Below, in pieces: positions 23,934 to 52,846 of a stretch of DNA of 64,000 nt. This DNA comes from an uncultured Lachnospiraceae bacterium (GTDB lineage Bacteria; Bacillota; Clostridia; Lachnospirales; Lachnospiraceae): assembly GCA_902789665.1 (NCBI GenBank), contig CADAOY010000003.1, positions 248,001 through 312,000 of the forward strand, in the 5' to 3' direction. The stretch's first letter is position 1; every line of letters starts with the position of its first letter. The position numbers and the translations under genes are program-made. The notes under the pieces are model-generated. The model had not been told where the DNA came from. It did not search any database and saw nothing but the letters and a program-made list of their open reading frames with translations.

Positions 23934-24887
23934 TTATTTATATATATTAATCGCCTCGGCTTTATCCGCGATATAAGCCGGATCCAGAGCCGCTGCATAC
24001 ATGGCACCTTCTTCATCAAGGTATATGTAATCCAGCACTCTGCTTTTTGTAAGAAGCAGGGTATCCAAGCCTGCAATTGGAAGTATATCTCTTTTTTCCA
24101 GATAAATTGCTGCAACTGCCGCAGCATTTTCTGCATTGATAGAATCATCCAGTGTATATCCCAAAGAATCATCATCAAAAATAAGCGACTCGTGGGAAGT
24201 GGCATAATAAATTTCACCAAGGGGAGGAAGAATGGCCATATCCGCCCCCTTGAAATAATCCAGAACTTCTACTTCATATTTAAGTTCATCTTCATTAAAG
24301 ATGTGAGTTCTGTTTAGGAAGAATTTCCAGTTAACCTTAATGCCTACAAGATAGGAATCGTCCTTATTTTCTACAATATTCTTAAAATCCCTGACGTAAA
24401 TGTCATCCTTATTTTTATACCCGGTGCCCATTATCTCGTCAATCTTTCTAAGACCCTGTTCATTTAAGGCCATAAGTGTTACGTCCAGGACACCGCGCTT
24501 AGGATTATCCCTGTCTTCGCAGTCTATGGAAACAGCATATACTGCCTTGCATTCATATTCATCTCTCATTGCAAGGGCAGATTTGATTTTGTCTTCTCTT
24601 GGAAGATCAATTACGATGACCCTGTCGGCGTCGGCAATTTCAGCATCGCCATGATAATTAATCATTTCAAGGCCCTGCTCTACCATATGCTCAATAACCG
24701 CAAGAGAAGAAATTTTAAGTCCGTATGTGGCGTCAAGTTCTTCGGCTATTTCTTCGAGGCTGAGTTCTACTTCTTCATCCAAAAGACCGTAGTACATACA
24801 AAGTACATCAGTATAAAGGAAAGGAAGAGTATAAAGTTTCTCTTCAAAACCGGTGGTATCAACATTTTTATGCATTTTCTCAAACAT
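23934..24887 (-). CDS. Unknown protein with sigma-70 region 4-like N-terminal segment
   Basis: A 317-residue cytoplasmic protein that I cannot assign. Residues about 18-60 (LPFLYTDVLCMYYGLLDEEV, then ELSLEEIAEELDATYGLKIS) follow the spacing of sigma factor region 4: a first helix ending in YGL, an acidic turn, L-S/T-LEEIAEEL, then a recognition helix position. No region 2 is present, so it is not a normal sigma factor. The remaining ~250 residues alternate strands and helices with acidic patches and two VDLP/VIVIDLP-like strands; no catalytic motif is evident. GGAG lies close to the ATG. The upstream region carries an unusual palindrome array. DNA binding is inference from the one segment. 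Confidence 0.8.
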   Translation of the reverse strand: MFEKMHKNVDTTGFEEKLYTLPFLYTDVLCMYYGLLDEEVELSLEEIAEELDATYGLKISSLAVIEHMVEQGLEMINYHGDAEIADADRVIVIDLPREDKIKSALAMRDEYECKAVYAVSIDCEDRDNPKRGVLDVTLMALNEQGLRKIDEIMGTGYKNKDDIYVRDFKNIVENKDDSYLVGIKVNWKFFLNRTHIFNEDELKYEVEVLDYFKGADMAILPPLGEIYYATSHESLIFDDDSLGYTLDDSINAENAAAVAAIYLEKRDILPIAGLDTLLLTKSRVLDYIYLDEEGAMYAAALDPAYIADKAEAINIYK

Positions 24888-25034: not shown

Positions 25035-25060
25035 AAACAATTAATTATTTATAAAGTTAG

Positions 25061-25149
25061 CCACGCTAGGACAAAATGCTCTCACAAAAGCGATCCTGTG
25101 CTGCTTGCAGCAATGAGCTTTTGGGAGAGTAGTTTTGGACGACGCGTGG
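25061..25149 (+). repeat. Interspersed nested-hairpin repeat, copy 1
   Basis: Core AGGACAAAATGCTCTC ... GAGAGTAGTTTTGGAC at 25068-25140. Outer arm CCACGC (25061-25066) pairs with GCGTGG (25144-25149). Main arm CTCaCAAAAGC pairs with GCTTTTGGGAG with one mismatch. Inner hairpin GCTG-CTTG-CAGC, followed by the conserved CAATGAGC. A direct repeat GCGTGGCGCGT (25144-25154, 25167-25177) flanks the right side. It lies in the 3' untranslated region of trmB. Confidence 0.85.
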
Positions 25150-25179
25150 CGCGTGGATGCTAATAAGCGTGGCGCGTAG

Positions 25180-25821
25180 TTACCTGCTTATTATATACTT
25201 ACAAATCGGATTCCCTATCGCTGAAAACTTCTCCTCATACTCAGTCATTACATTACCCACCATAAGTCTCTCATCCTTATGAAGGTCATATGTGCATTCA
25301 TCCATATGCCACTTTGGGCTTTCCTTCACCTCATCCACTGCAAAATCAAAGAGCATTCTGTTATCTGTCTTAAATTCGATAATTCCATCAGGTTTAAGAA
25401 TCGCATCATATCTTTCCAGAAACTGCCTGGACTCAAGCCTTCTTTTGGCATGTCTGTCCTTCGGCCACGGATCTGAGAAATTAAGATATATCCTGTCAAC
25501 CTCACCCTCGCCGAAGACATCGCAGATTTCCTCTGCATCCATTCTTATGAATTTAAGATTAGGAAGATTAAGCTCTTCCTGCTTCTGGATGGCACGAAGA
25601 AGCACGCTGGAGTATTTTTCAATTCCGACATAATTGATATCAGGATTATTCTGCGCAAGAGTAATAATGAACTGTCCCTTACCCATGCCTATTTCAATAT
25701 AGACCGGATTGTCGTTTCCGAATATTTCATTCCATTTATCTTTATGTGCAGCATAATCATGGATTACATATTCGCTGTCTGCAATATATTCTTTTGAACC
25801 TGTTATATTTCTAAGTCTCAA
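25180..25821 (-). CDS. trmB: tRNA (guanine-N7)-methyltransferase
   Basis: A 213-residue SAM-dependent enzyme that makes m7G46 in tRNA. Motif I EIGMGKGQFI, motif IV LNFSDPWPKDRHAKRRL with the family-defining DPWPK-x-RH-x-KRR, and the C-terminal TEYEEKFSAIGNPICK segment (T-x-Y-E-x-K) are all present. Normal length, cytoplasmic, single domain. It follows the D-Ala-D-Ala carboxypeptidase gene by 11 bases on the same strand. A hairpin repeat and a terminator occupy its 3' region. Confidence 0.97.
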   Translation of the reverse strand: MRLRNITGSKEYIADSEYVIHDYAAHKDKWNEIFGNDNPVYIEIGMGKGQFIITLAQNNPDINYVGIEKYSSVLLRAIQKQEELNLPNLKFIRMDAEEICDVFGEGEVDRIYLNFSDPWPKDRHAKRRLESRQFLERYDAILKPDGIIEFKTDNRMLFDFAVDEVKESPKWHMDECTYDLHKDERLMVGNVMTEYEEKFSAIGNPICKYIISR

Positions 25822-28609: not shown

Positions 28610-28611
28610 AG

Positions 28612-28699
28612 CGGAGAAAGAGGGATTTGAACCCTCGCGCCGGTTGCCCGACCTACACCCTTAGCAGGGGCGCCTCTTCGGCCTCTTGAGTATTTCTCC
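28612..28699 (-). tRNA. tRNA-Ser (anticodon GCU)
   Basis: An 88-nt class II tRNA with a long variable arm (TAGGTCGGGCAACCGGC region). Acceptor arms GGAGAAA / TTTCTCC, discriminator G, anticodon loop CTGCTAA giving GCU, T-arm GAGGGTTCAAATCCCTC. CCA is not encoded. Confidence 0.95.
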
Positions 28700-44689: not shown

Positions 44690-46111
44690 TTATATCATCG
44701 GCTTAAGTACTGTAACAAGGCCAAGTATAATTGCAATAATATTAATTATTCTCTTTTGTTTTTTATTCTTTTCATCTTCATCCGCATTGTAAAAACAAAG
44801 CAGATATCCGTTTAAAAGCGCAATTAAAATACATTCAATTATTGCTGTTCTGTGGAATGATACATATACTGTCGGGCTGAAACCTGTAAGCATACGTGAG
44901 CAAAAAGCCGCACAAAGAAGTAAAATGGCAATGATTCTCTGAGTGTATAGTGGGCAGGTATTTTGCGTGGTTATAACCACATTTTCTTCTTTACCTTTAC
45001 TGAATACTCCCACTATTCCAACTATGGTGCAGGTAATATAGAAAAGATAAATGAGCACTTCTATAATTACATGAATCATTGGTACGTCGGACATTGATGG
45101 CAAATCCACGTTACTCATAAAGTAGGTTACGCCAAAACTTATATTAATATGGGCCATTGACAGTATCTTCTCGATGAGTGAGAGAGTCGGCAGCACCATT
45201 GGAAACAGGGATGCAATGATATATATATATTTCTTTTTCTTCGTTATATTAATATAAAGAATACTTAATGTCGTAAAGAAAAACAGGAAGTTGGTTTCTG
45301 TGCTCAGCATTGGAAATGTTACTGCCTGCAAAAAGCCCATTCCAAATTTTTCTATTAATGTTACATTCTCCCAGCCCGGAAAATTAAGACCTGCTTCTAT
45401 CGCGGTTCTGTTAGCATTGCCGGGACAGGTAACAACCAGAAGAATTCCAAGTAAACTTAATATGAAGAATATATACCAGTGAACAGAAAGCGATGGTTTT
45501 TTCTTTTCTCTAATGCTTTTAATAACATCTACTAAGATAAATAATCCTGTAGCCACAAAATATATAACTGTTATCTGCTCATTAAAAAGTGCAAAGATTA
45601 AGGAAAGATAAATAAATATATACTCATATGCTTTAACCTTTATTCCTCTTATATTTCTAAAGAGAAAGGAAGCTGCATATATGCCTAAAGCTGCAGGCCA
45701 GAGATAATTAATGGTAGTTGCCATTTCGCCTGCAGAGCGCATCACCTCGGTGGGAATCATCATAACCACGGGAATGGCAAGAAGGGATATGAACTTATTA
45801 TCCGAATTATTAATGATAATTCCGGTACTTACGCTAAGGAGAATAATCATGAGAATATCCGTAATGCGCCATACCATAATGGGAAGTCTTGCAATAATAA
45901 CAAGCAATGCTTCAATTCCCTGTCTGGAGGTCCAGTTAAGATATCTGTAGGAAAGAAAAGAAAAAATATTCTCATCATCCAAAGCTTTGGAAAAGAAAAC
46001 ATCATCTCCGCTTAAAGTGCGAATACACATATGTATGATAAAATAGAGAATTATCATTAGCCCATAGCCCAGGGCATATTGAAGGATTATCTGTTTTTTG
46101 TTGTTTTTCAT
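44690..46111 (-). CDS. DUF6056-like polytopic membrane protein
   Basis: A 473-residue protein with about twelve hydrophobic helices. The first extracytoplasmic loop has GDDVFFSKALDDENIFSFLS followed by YRYLNWTSRQGIE, which matches the DUF6056 pattern as I know it (GDD near the first helix, then W-x-SRQ). These proteins have a GT-C-like layout with acidic residues in the first loop and are likely envelope polymer glycosyltransferases or related; the reaction is unknown. A charged cytoplasmic loop lies near residue 210. It is followed by two lipoproteins. Confidence 0.7.
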   Translation of the reverse strand: MKNNKKQIILQYALGYGLMIILYFIIHMCIRTLSGDDVFFSKALDDENIFSFLSYRYLNWTSRQGIEALLVIIARLPIMVWRITDILMIILLSVSTGIIINNSDNKFISLLAIPVVMMIPTEVMRSAGEMATTINYLWPAALGIYAASFLFRNIRGIKVKAYEYIFIYLSLIFALFNEQITVIYFVATGLFILVDVIKSIREKKKPSLSVHWYIFFILSLLGILLVVTCPGNANRTAIEAGLNFPGWENVTLIEKFGMGFLQAVTFPMLSTETNFLFFFTTLSILYINITKKKKYIYIIASLFPMVLPTLSLIEKILSMAHINISFGVTYFMSNVDLPSMSDVPMIHVIIEVLIYLFYITCTIVGIVGVFSKGKEENVVITTQNTCPLYTQRIIAILLLCAAFCSRMLTGFSPTVYVSFHRTAIIECILIALLNGYLLCFYNADEDEKNKKQKRIINIIAIILGLVTVLKPMI

Positions 46112-46147
46112 ATTTCTTCCTTATCTTTTAATGTGTCCACCTTTTGA

Positions 46148-46243
46148 ACTCGCGCGACCTCCAAAACTACTCTCCCAAAAGCTCATTGAAGCAAGCTTCA
46201 GGGGTTCGCTTTTGGGAGAGCATTTTGTCCTGGCGCTCGTGAG
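46148..46243 (-). repeat. Interspersed nested-hairpin repeat, copy 2
   Basis: Reverse-oriented copy; core 46159-46231. Read on the minus strand: AGGACAAAATGCTCTCCCAA ... GAGAGTAGTTTTGGAG. Main arm CTCCCAAAAGC / GCTTTTGGGAG is perfect; inner hairpin GAAG-CTTG-CTTC, then CAATGAGC. The outer arms, CTCACGAG against CTCGCGCGA, pair only partly. It lies between the esterase stop and the DUF6056-like start. Confidence 0.85.
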
Positions 46244-46265
46244 AAGTTTGAGTCTTTGCGCAGGT

Positions 46266-47105
46266 TTATAAGCTCTCAACATAAGTCATAAACTTGTCTA
46301 CTGTCTTGCTTTCGCTTCGGCTGTAAAGGAAACAGCCGGCTGTATACCAAGAGTGGGTATTCTTCTTATCTTCTACTTCATATAGTTCGCATTTAACCCC
46401 CAGCTTCGCTGCCATCTCGGCCATATCCTCAGCGCACTTAAATTCAAGAAGACCATCATGTCTGCTCTGGATTAAAAGCATTGGAATATTACTTTCACAC
46501 ATAAGTGATACAGGCTCTGCTTCTTTTCTGTCATATCCCTTTTTAAATAACATATTAATAAGAAGCTTTATGGTAAGGCCTGCATCATCCCTGAAAGAAT
46601 AAGGTCCACCGATACCTATATATCCGATAACATTGGAAATATCCACATTGTACTTTTCCTGGTCTTTTTTGCTATAACACATAATAGATGACAGATGGGC
46701 GCCTGCTGACGGGCCTGAAACAATGACTTTCGATGTATCCACATTCTTTTCTTTAAGATATTTCATGGCCTCATTGTAGCACTTACATACATCTTCTATC
46801 TGAGCCGGATATTTATATTTATTAGACAATCTGTAACCTACCGAGATAAAATGATATCCCATTCCTGCCACGCTCTGTCCCATAAAATCAAAGAACTTCG
46901 GATCACCTGCATTCCATCCGCCACCATGAATCCAGACAATAACCTTATCGCTGACAGCTTCCTTAGGTCTGTAATAATAGAAATACTGATTCTTATCATC
47001 TCCAAAAGTAACCTTATCCGGAGTAATTGTCTTCTTCACCTTAAAAAGCATCCTGTAATACATCGGATAGTAACTTAAGTTTTCTCTAATATAATCAATC
47101 ATCAT
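46266..47105 (-). CDS. Alpha/beta hydrolase, HSL-type esterase
   Basis: A 279-residue esterase/lipase-like enzyme. Oxyanion-hole motif VWIHGGGWNAGDP, nucleophile Ser in VSGPSAGAHLSS (G-x-S-A-G), Asp in QSRHDGLLEF, His in NTHSWYTAG. No signal peptide, so it is cytoplasmic. It could deacetylate sugars or hydrolyse small esters; hemicellulose deacetylation fits a fibre-degrading lifestyle but is inference. It lies 67 bases after the ABC exporter pair and may be part of that transcript. Confidence 0.88.
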   Translation of the reverse strand: MMIDYIRENLSYYPMYYRMLFKVKKTITPDKVTFGDDKNQYFYYYRPKEAVSDKVIVWIHGGGWNAGDPKFFDFMGQSVAGMGYHFISVGYRLSNKYKYPAQIEDVCKCYNEAMKYLKEKNVDTSKVIVSGPSAGAHLSSIMCYSKKDQEKYNVDISNVIGYIGIGGPYSFRDDAGLTIKLLINMLFKKGYDRKEAEPVSLMCESNIPMLLIQSRHDGLLEFKCAEDMAEMAAKLGVKCELYEVEDKKNTHSWYTAGCFLYSRSESKTVDKFMTYVESL

Positions 47106-47172
47106 TTCTACACTTCACCTCCCATCATCATAATCACTGATTTAGCCAGTTCCTTAAAACTTCATCATAACT

Positions 47173-50603: not shown

Positions 50604-51782
50604 TTATTCGGTTTCTTCATCCTTAATCTTTCTTGCGCATACAACGAAACGTCCTTCGTTGGTATGATATGCACAGGTTACAAGCATTATTATATCATCT
50701 CCATATTCAGGCACAATCCCTGTGTCATACAAAGATTTGCTGCAGAGGTTCTCAATGTTATAATCGAAATCCTCTTTTGTTTCTGAATCAATAAAATAAT
50801 AGAATTTGTAATTTGTATCTGTTGAATTATAGATTCTGTCCCTGAATGCTGAGAATACTTCATATTCTCCCTTCTCATAAAGGGTATCGAATTCTATAAT
50901 CTTATGCTCCTCATAAAATTCCTTCTTCTCATAATTCATGATGGCCTTGAACATTGTGCCGTTACGCATATGATGGCCATAGAGAATCAGGTTGTCAGAA
51001 CGCGGATCCATGGTGCATCTGAAGTCGATGAAAATCGCGCCCGATGTGGACTCCTCACCATTGAAATCCCTGTGAATATATTTCTGACCGATTATTCCAT
51101 CCTCATCCACATAATCAGGTGTATGCATTACCGGATAATCAATAACCGTACCATCAAGGCGAATCCAGCCCACCATATCATTATTCTGCTCATAGAAAGG
51201 AAGGTACTCAGGAAGAATATCTTTCTCCTCTTCCTCCTCCTCTTTTTCCTGAGCTGCAAGAGCCATATTATCCACCATGGCATCAAGACCTATGGAATCT
51301 GCATCGATTACCACAATCTTGCTGTCCACCAGCTCCTGCCAGGCTTTTCTCTCTTTGGCAATTCTCACCTGATAACTAATCAGATATCCCGCAGATATGG
51401 CAAAAATCACCGCCGCCACCACAAAGACAAAATACATAATCTTAAGCTTCTTATCAAGAGTCTTAAAATTCTTAATGTCATTTATGACAAGGGCAAAGAA
51501 GTTCTTCTTTTTCTTATCATCTTTATCTTCTTCTGCCTTTACCGGCTTTTTTTCCTTGGGAATATCTTCCTCGATATTGATATCCTCATCAGGGATGGTT
51601 TCTTCTTCAGCCTCTTCAGGCGCTTCAGCTTCTACGGTTGCCTCTGCCACTTCGGCTTCTACGATTGCCTCGGCCTCCGGCGCTGGCGCTTCCTGCTCTG
51701 CAACTTCCGCCTCTGCCTTCGGAGTTTCATCCACCTCATCCCAAATGCTTGATTCACTTGTATTCTTTATTTCATCACTCAT
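50604..51782 (-). CDS. Class B sortase with acidic cytoplasmic N-terminal region
   Basis: A 392-residue protein. Residues ~1-105 are acidic, rich in Ala, Glu, Val and Pro, with the peptide TSESSIWDEV near the start; one membrane helix follows (about 115-140); then a sortase domain. Active-site His is in LYGHHMRNG, the nucleophile is C370 in MLVTCAYHTNEGRF, and Arg follows in VVCARK. The spacing and the YPVMHTPDY segment fit class B. Sortases attach proteins to peptidoglycan or polymerise pili. The long acidic N-terminal tail faces the cytoplasm and is unusual. No LPXTG/NPQTN-type substrate was seen in the window. Confidence 0.92.
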   Translation of the reverse strand: MSDEIKNTSESSIWDEVDETPKAEAEVAEQEAPAPEAEAIVEAEVAEATVEAEAPEEAEEETIPDEDINIEEDIPKEKKPVKAEEDKDDKKKKNFFALVINDIKNFKTLDKKLKIMYFVFVVAAVIFAISAGYLISYQVRIAKERKAWQELVDSKIVVIDADSIGLDAMVDNMALAAQEKEEEEEEKDILPEYLPFYEQNNDMVGWIRLDGTVIDYPVMHTPDYVDEDGIIGQKYIHRDFNGEESTSGAIFIDFRCTMDPRSDNLILYGHHMRNGTMFKAIMNYEKKEFYEEHKIIEFDTLYEKGEYEVFSAFRDRIYNSTDTNYKFYYFIDSETKEDFDYNIENLCSKSLYDTGIVPEYGDDIIMLVTCAYHTNEGRFVVCARKIKDEETE

Positions 51783-51845
51783 TCTTAACCTTCTTTAACA
51801 CATGTTATAAAGATTATACCATTATTACTATTATGTGACAATGTT

Positions 51846-51936
51846 GCGCAGCGCAAGGACAAAATGCTCTCCCCAAAGCCATCTAAGTGCAGCTTGCTGC
51901 AATGAGCTTTGGGGAGAGTAGTTTTGGACGATGCGC
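51846..51936 (+). repeat. Interspersed nested-hairpin repeat, copy 3
   Basis: Core 51856-51930. Outer arm GCGCA (51846-51850) pairs with TGCGC (51932-51936). Main arm TCTCCCCAAAGC / GCTTTGGGGAGA is perfect although two positions differ from copy 2. Inner hairpin GCAG-CTTG-CTGC, then CAATGAGC. It lies between the LysR gene stop and the sortase start. Confidence 0.85.
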
Positions 51937-51943
51937 GTCCTAC

Positions 51944-52846
51944 TTAGAACGGCTTATACTTCTTAAGTTCCTCAATAAAGCTAAGTGCCATAGGACTTAA
52001 AATATGATCATCTCTTATAATATATCCGATGGTCATTTTATCCTCAGCATCAAGTGGAACCGCTGTATATCCCACACCATTTAATTCCTTACAGATAACA
52101 CCGCTGCAAAGGGTAAAACCATTAAGAAGTGTCATCATATTAAGAGCAGTCGCCCTGTCATTTACACGAATAATCTTTCTGTACGGATAAGTGCTGAGCA
52201 CCTCTTCCGCAAAATAAAATGAATTCTTCTCACCCTGATTAAAGGAAAGACAAGGATACTCATCAAGGTCCTTTAATGACACCTTTTTCTTCTTTGCAAG
52301 CGGATGGTTCGTTGAAAGATATGCATAGGTATCGCAGGTAAAAAGCTCATTAAAGTTAAGATTATTTTCTGCCAGTTCCTTATATAAAACCTTATTGTTA
52401 AAGTCATTGATGTAAAGTATTCCAAGCTCGCTTCTCATATTTTTTACATCAGTAATAACCTCGCCTGTTCTGGTTTCATATATGGCAAAATCATACTCTT
52501 CCATGGAATTATTTAATACCACGTTTGAAAAAGCCTCCACCGCAAAAGTATAATGCTGGGCAGACACATGGAAAACCTTCTTGGCAGAAGATGTGCCCAG
52601 GTATCTTTGTTCCATAAACTTATACTGCTCCAAAGTCTGCCTTGCATAACCAATGAACTCACTGCCTTCGGTAGTAAGCTCTATACCCTTGTTGCTCCTG
52701 TTAAAAATCTTAATTCCGATTTCTTTTTCAAGTTCTTTAATGGTTCCGGACAAACTTGGCTGCGATATATAAAGAGCCTTTGCGGCCTCATTCATTGATC
52801 CCCTGTCCGCAACACATATAACATATTTCATCTGTTGTAATGTCAT
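51944..52846 (-). CDS. LysR-family transcriptional regulator
   Basis: A 300-residue regulator. The N-terminal winged HTH reads MTLQQMKYVICVADRGSMNE, then AAKALYISQPSLSGTIKELE; the C-terminal ~210 residues form the co-inducer-binding domain (YDFAIYETRTGEVI, LGILYINDFN, AYLSTNHPLAKKKKVSLKDL). The effector is unknown. GGAG lies upstream of the ATG. It lies between the DUF2142-like gene and the repeat/sortase region; LysR proteins often control a neighbour, but no divergent gene is present here, so the target is unclear. Confidence 0.93.
   Translation of the reverse strand: MTLQQMKYVICVADRGSMNEAAKALYISQPSLSGTIKELEKEIGIKIFNRSNKGIELTTEGSEFIGYARQTLEQYKFMEQRYLGTSSAKKVFHVSAQHYTFAVEAFSNVVLNNSMEEYDFAIYETRTGEVITDVKNMRSELGILYINDFNNKVLYKELAENNLNFNELFTCDTYAYLSTNHPLAKKKKVSLKDLDEYPCLSFNQGEKNSFYFAEEVLSTYPYRKIIRVNDRATALNMMTLLNGFTLCSGVICKELNGVGYTAVPLDAEDKMTIGYIIRDDHILSPMALSFIEELKKYKPF

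Follow-up and report, generated by a model that had tools for sequence, protein, structure and literature searches.

Three copies of a nested hairpin lie scattered in a 64,000-nucleotide stretch of a Lachnospiraceae genome (the window, analysed at its full length), and the letters of their paired arms differ while the pairing is kept. The locus therefore raises the question of what such a repeat is: a structured RNA, a mobile hairpin of the REP or MITE type, or a relative of a family that already has a name. According to a preliminary description of the same DNA, the three copies share several sequence blocks but differ in their stems. All three copies and their shared blocks were found where that description had placed them, as were all of the paired arms that it had named. 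The features are as follows, in window coordinates.

25054 to 25152, plus strand: copy 1, covariance-model match
25061-25066 with 25144-25149: outer stem of copy 1
25073-25083 (AAAATGCTCTC) with 25125-25136 (GAGAGTAGTTTT): P2 arms of copy 1
25099-25103 with 25108-25112: tip stem of copy 1, with the loop CTTG at 25104-25107
46147 to 46245, minus strand: copy 2, covariance-model match
46145 to 47149, minus strand: segment comprising the 46266-47105 gene and copy 2, present in the window and absent from the sister species, Lachnospiraceae bacterium UBA4338 (hereafter UBA4338)
51842 to 51941, plus strand: copy 3, covariance-model match

The inner stems are GCTG/CAGC in copy 1, GAAG/CTTC in copy 2 and GCAG/CTGC in copy 3, and the main stems of copies 2 and 3 are CCCAAAA/TTTTGGG and CCCCAAA/TTTGGGG. 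The main stem of copy 1 is CACAAAA/TTTTGGG and thus contains one A.G mismatch, which the preliminary description did not mention. The predicted folds of the three copies are more stable than those of dinucleotide shuffles (z of -3.86, -4.09 and -5.52). All three copies are intergenic. Copy 1 is flanked by the genes 23934-24887, without a Pfam match, and 25180-25821 (Methyltransf_4). Copy 2, on the coding strand, occupies the gap that separates the stop of the alpha/beta hydrolase gene 46266-47105 from the beginning of gene 44690-46111, which has no Pfam match. Copy 3 is flanked by a sortase gene (50604-51782) and a LysR-type gene (51944-52846); it is antisense to the latter and ends 2 bases from its stop codon. 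No shared theme was seen among the six flanking genes. A GC-rich short near-tandem repeat (GCGTGGCGCGTGG..GCTAATAAGCGTGGCGCGT) adjoins copy 1 at 25144-25181, and similar repeats occur in UBA4338. The window also contains a tRNA-Ser (gct) on the minus strand at 28611-28699, identified by ARAGORN and a permissive Rfam scan and missed by the fast gathering scan.

The three copies belong to a larger set. A 16-base pattern, with up to one mismatch allowed, occurs 19 times in the genome to which the window belongs (G000), and a DNA similarity search there yielded 20 strong matches. A covariance model, the means by which the preliminary description had proposed to search for further copies, was built from 20 copies (R1) and identified at least 22 sense-strand copies in G000 (150 of 644 first-look candidates scored) and at least 18 in UBA4338 (132 of 521 scored); one further, divergent copy in G000 is located at L194. 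Another 17 weaker R1 matches in G000 are the opposite strand of known copies, as expected because the element is a near-palindrome. Only two of the 31 genomes of the genus, G000 included, carry the element, namely G000 and UBA4338. When 397 sampled genomes of the family, among them G000 but not UBA4338, were searched, R1 matched G000 and gave two weak matches elsewhere; in this search 10 candidates were scored per genome with stricter filters, such that weak relatives may be missed. Within G000 the copies are unevenly placed, with none in the 625-kb contig C4 and six in the 81-kb contig C6. None of 20000 random placements was as extreme, and three of 20000 were when neighbouring copies were merged. 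Spread by viruses was considered and rejected: the one viral-contig stretch found by pattern scan lacks an R1 match, and the apex pattern occurs in 43 viral-contig stretches, a number attainable by chance according to a rough estimate. Apex-pattern matches in the genomes G048 and G102 have a fold unlike that of the element and were dropped as chance; four other pattern matches, in SAR86, Chloroflexi, Flagellimonas and Bacteroidales contigs, were likewise dropped, since R1 scored them at 15.5 or 14.6 bits or did not match them.

The copies, each about 75-110 bases in length, define a dispersed, structured, intergenic repeat with the shape of one long hairpin. Read from base to tip, a variable basal stem is usually followed by a G.A/A.G step and then by a stem of conserved sequence, in which one G.T wobble is fixed and one base bulges out; a second variable stem, an internal loop and a final stem capped by CTTG complete the hairpin. 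In the 39 copies aligned to the model, the conserved stem AAAATGCTCT/AGAGTAGTTTT is nearly invariant, its G.U pair is present in 39 of 39, and the bulged base occurs in all, being a G in 38. Paired variation is found in the basal stem, in the tip stem and in the stem next to AAAATGCTCT/AGAGTAGTTTT. The basal step GGAC/GGAC comprises the pairs G-C, G.A, A.G and C-G; in the variants GGAG/CGAC and CGAC/GGAG the flanking pair is swapped and the G.A/A.G core, seen in 29 of the 39 copies, is retained. The CTTG tip is present in 35 of the 39. In RNA, a CUUG loop with a G-C closing pair is unusually stable.

The pairing is kept despite sequence change, as had been claimed from the three copies. Of all paired cells, 95.8% are complementary compared with 84.6% in shuffles, and 16 of the 30 pairs have changed on both sides. 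The covariation score is 0.268 versus 0.088 (sd 0.008) in shuffled alignments, a value reached by none of 500 shuffles. The alignment had been fitted to the structure, however, and copies have changes in common through descent or exchange, so that these counts do not represent independent events. For each of the five measures of pairing and covariation, the true alignment is above all 500 shuffles and above slid registers, and sliding of the register abolishes the covariation signal. The arms of the basal stem pair better within their own copy than after swapping between copies (0 of 10000 permutations as good). In the outermost 14 bases there is no signal of within-copy pairing (4506 of 10000 permutations as good). 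The fold of the repeat is real.

A real fold does not disclose what maintains it. The covariation might be mostly mutational, with template switching and exchange between copies writing both arms of a stem and the fold itself unselected. DNA template switching can rewrite both arms of a hairpin in a single event (PMC8794818), and several pairs of the repeat switch from C-G to A-U without a wobble intermediate. At the orthologous site L148/L138 of the two sister species, the tip stem has changed on both arms while the surroundings are nearly unchanged, and the UBA4338 copy L144 has a 33-base stretch in common with L138; on a simple reading of these sequences, the change of the tip stem probably arose by exchange between copies. 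Arguing against a mainly mutational origin is that such processes would be expected to remove the bulge, the wobble pair G.T and the internal loops as well, all of which persist, and that relatives in other genera, described below, retain the apex while most of their remaining stem letters differ. We therefore consider this explanation unlikely. The preliminary description had nonetheless gone too far in concluding from the stems that the fold is under selection. The pairing is indeed kept, but compensatory changes alone are no proof, given stem exchange, template switching and the example of the REPs, in which, as in the present element, subfamilies carry alternative complementary stems; among GTAG REPs they are distinguished by alternative complementary stem residues (PMC3733652).

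Selection acting on a transcript, either a small RNA or an element of 3' untranslated regions, would also maintain the pairing. The G.U pair fixed in every aligned copy, the bulge, the G.A/A.G step and the CTTG tip suit such a functional RNA, as does the filing of the possible relative RF01699 (Clostridiales-1) as an sRNA in Rfam; Table 1 of PMC2864571, the one place in the main text of that paper where Clostridiales-1 is named, rates it 'probably RNA' and cis-regulatory 'n'. However, an excess of G.U over A.C, by which strand-specific selection might have been recognized, was not found at the variable pairs (16 versus 16 cells, fixed G.U excluded). There is thus, the fixed G.U aside, no sign of which strand folds. 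The copies are also present in both orientations relative to genes, their carriers are confined to two of 31 genomes of the genus, and about half of the places compared differ between the sister species, as detailed below. A functional RNA is hence improbable as the general explanation.

A gene 3' end lies on at least one side of 39 of the 40 copies, as determined with gene ends from simple ORF calling instead of annotation and with 10 orthologous pairs included. Twelve of the 40 are located between convergent genes and one between divergent genes, and in the 27 co-directional gaps 19 copies are antisense and 8 sense. By the same simple calls, four copies (L150, L151, L157:8003 and L139) overlap an ORF. 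REPs, too, occur mostly downstream of coding regions (PMC3733652).

A comparison of G000 with UBA4338, whose long aligned stretches are mostly 92-97% identical, revealed that 10 loci are occupied in both species and that 11 of the 21 copy places compared differ. The site of copy 1 is occupied in UBA4338 as well (locus L136). Among 16 G000 copies checked, six have no UBA4338 counterpart (L158:9434, both copies in L154, L153, and window copies 2 and 3); six others, in L150, L151, L152 (two) and L157 (two), were left out of the comparison. Conversely, five of 15 UBA4338 copies checked have no counterpart in G000 (L132, L133, L142, L145, and L139, in place of which G000 carries another cluster of repeats), with L135, L137 and L143 left out. 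Copy 2 is missing from UBA4338 together with the alpha/beta hydrolase gene 46266-47105, as one block of 1005 bases. The place in UBA4338 that matches copy 3 is empty, and the remaining gap has also diverged; the junction is not clean. Being dispersed, intergenic and present or absent between sister species, the repeat is in the broad sense the REP-like or MITE-like mobile hairpin that had been suspected.

Empty sites in a close relative, the evidence to which the preliminary description had pointed, are clean in four cases, with a junction overlap of 1 base at L133, 2 at L145, 1 at L142 and 1 at L132. For the 1005-base block that includes copy 2 the overlap is 2 bases; it is 6 bases at L153 and 12 at L158:9434, and there is none at L154. 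Most sites thus have little or no target duplication; the overlaps at L153 and L158:9434 could be duplications. At L133 the empty allele contains a continuous terminator-like hairpin followed by a T run, which in the occupied allele is split at that point. This favours insertion at L133, with no outgroup used for polarity, and from the two species we infer insertion rather than loss at other sites too. The inserts measure 111 bases at L133, 114 at L145, 127 at L132, 127 at L158, 186 at L153, 191 at L142 and 205 at L154, and all seven exceed the core. The L154 insert consists of two inverted copies and that of L153 of a nested pair. Elements within elements were read from the sequences at L153 and L157, where subtype C contains B, and at L147, where B contains A. 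Subtypes differ between G000 and UBA4338 at two of the loci occupied in both, L146/L134 and L158:10583/L140:10444. The copy-specific outer arms gave rise to the idea that the element inserts into pre-existing palindromes, which was rejected since at L145 and L133 the arms lie inside the insert.

Other repeats were encountered in the same comparison. At L139/L269 the same gap holds different repeats in the two species, with a cluster of a GGGTGGGGTGCCGGGGC-type family at about 8915-9146 of L269; repeats of this type occur also at L139 and L142. A stretch of some 147 bases at L146:5622-5769, found in G000 but missing from UBA4338, forms several hairpins, including the tips AAAAGCTTGCTTTT and GAGCAAATCTCTGATTTGCGAG, in a layout resembling that of full Clostridiales-1, with no Rfam match at E<=1.

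In being short, palindromic, dispersed and intergenic, the copies resemble classical MITEs of a DDE insertion sequence, and the overlaps of 12 and 6 bases at L158:9434 and L153 could be read as the corresponding duplications. However, the copies lack a conserved terminal inverted repeat, their basal arms being copy-specific, and at the four clean sites and the copy 2 segment the overlaps amount to just 1-2 bases. No autonomous copy was seen among the AAAATGCTCT matches screened; the search for transposases covered the Y1 family. An origin as a DDE MITE is very improbable.

Little target duplication would fit REPs proper. Their hairpins are substrates, in single-stranded form, of a REP-associated tyrosine transposase (Y1, HUH; RAYT) encoded in the same genome. 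HUH chemistry is compatible with insertion almost without target duplication, and one Y1 transposase match is present in each sister species (L061 and L172). In REPs and the REPtrons of RAYTs, as in the present element, the repeats are palindromic, extragenic and located downstream of genes (PMC3733652, PMC8266576), and bulged hairpins are recognised by a TnpAREP (PMC8266576). The two Y1 genes are, however, adjoined by a REP of their own, a GTAGGGACGG-type repeat, and the Y1 locus L061 has no R1 match; this transposase was accordingly rejected as the mover. Y1 matches occur in 17 of the 31 genomes of the genus whereas the element occurs in 2. GTAG/CGTC REPs comprise 20-40 bases with an unpaired tetranucleotide tag, whereas the present element is longer (75-110 bases) and has no unpaired GTAG or CGTC tag at either end of its copies; the GTAG conserved among the aligned copies lies inside a P2 arm. 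That the repeat is a REP proper is consequently a doubtful proposition. The ERIC, BOX and bcr1 families belong to other phyla or genera. They resemble the present element in their tens of intergenic copies with a common predicted fold (PMC2267715), a likeness drawn without sequence comparison.

The preliminary description knew no named family with this consensus. At Rfam thresholds this holds, as none of the three window copies has an Rfam match. RF01699 matches neither the window (limit E<=3) nor L031, L049, L050 and L194 (limit E<=5). It is likewise without a match in G000 at a limit of E<=0.01, for which 7 out of 11 first-look candidates were scored; in all of these the element remains below the RF01699 gathering score of 48 bits. 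A two-way comparison of profiles nevertheless points to a remote relation with hairpin 1 of that family. The two weak R1 matches in the family sample, L107 and L108, stem from two other genera (E of 7.3e-5 and 9.0e-5 per genome, 397 genomes) and retain the apex AGCGA..GCTTGC..ATGAGCT with largely different stems. The L108 copy, which is the same copy as L212, matches RF01699 positions 1-166 with 27.9 bits, under the gathering score, and the second RF01699 hairpin is recognisable in it. For the reverse direction, a model of RF01699 hairpin 1 (R2) was built from 26 sequences (alignment A4, containing 26 of the 29 hairpins that remained after exclusion of L295, in which the hairpin was not found). 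R2 was run against 643 kb taken from G000, UBA4338 and the two intermediates and had 11 matches with E<=10. Every one is on the sense strand, 9 on present elements and 2 on the intermediates L211 and L212. These scores are weak: the best E is 0.041, 31 of 40 copies are missed at E<=10, and 4 of the 11 matches span little beyond the tip. R1 matched four of 29 RF01699 loci, always at hairpin 1 and in its orientation. G300 is a single-contig genome of 3.52 Mb; the 400 kb of it that were searched contain no R1 match but six strong R2 matches (L308-L327), about 50 per genome by proportion. Three of the six lie within 140 kb scanned with Rfam; two reach the gathering score and the L308 match does not.

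Because the place and strand of the R1 and R2 matches agree, though each score is weak, these sequence profiles suggest remote kinship with RF01699 hairpin 1, not membership in the family. Both repeats have a long hairpin 1 with a CTTG-tipped apex, base letters that are similar by eye (AGG.CAAAA and TTGG.AC), and multiple dispersed copies in Lachnospiraceae. Clostridiales-1, modelled over 166 positions, also has an outer stem and another hairpin, whereas the present copies correspond to hairpin 1 alone, with other stem letters and scores below the RF01699 threshold. Four motifs similar to the second hairpin (GAGCA..UGCGAA) were found in the fetched stretches of G000 and UBA4338, none of them adjoining a copy. 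Of 27 RF01699 loci tallied for gene ends, 8 lie between divergent genes; this differs from the present element but is given no weight in either direction, since these loci are short and yield poor ORF calls. Two long CTTG-tipped hairpins may also have arisen by convergence.

RF01699 itself was found in 219 of the 397 family genomes at E<=0.01 and above its cut-off in 176, with at most 7 candidates scored per genome; it is present in the congener G001 and in none of 14 control genomes. This distribution, together with its density in G300, makes the Rfam-filed sRNA Clostridiales-1 resemble a high-copy dispersed repeat. We found no paper treating Clostridiales-1 as mobile in the literature searched.

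In the model that we consider reasonably probable, the element derives remotely from the Clostridiales-1 repeat, has kept one hairpin, and moves between genes, perhaps by way of a folded single strand. It would be a non-autonomous repeat, most likely derived from RF01699 hairpin 1 by loss of the other hairpins, with the direction of descent deduced from the profiles. It would spread as a unit into intergenic gaps, and a putative mover would recognise the folded single strand, either DNA or RNA that is copied back, via the conserved stem and the tip. Recognition of a folded strand would explain why the shape is conserved, why the ends have no common terminal sequence and why the four clean sites are nearly free of target duplication. 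The conserved shape with drifting ends, the clean empty sites and the nesting hint, with little weight, at such a unit. Copies may persist near gene 3' ends because insertion is tolerated there, and those that are transcribed may end or protect mRNA. A broader model appears speculative and improbable: Clostridiales-1 and its derivatives would form one large superfamily of mobile elements, a bacterial counterpart of SINEs, whose folded RNA or single-stranded DNA is recognised by shape; hairpin modules would be lost, swapped and nested between copies, and the present element would be a recently radiating single-hairpin lineage.

The repeat serves as a warning that covariation in intergenic multicopy hairpins need not imply a function as cellular RNA. 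Its single-hairpin form shows which parts of a Clostridiales-1-type fold are fixed and which drift, and the paired occupied and empty sites in two such closely similar species provide a way to test how a repeat conserved in shape spreads.
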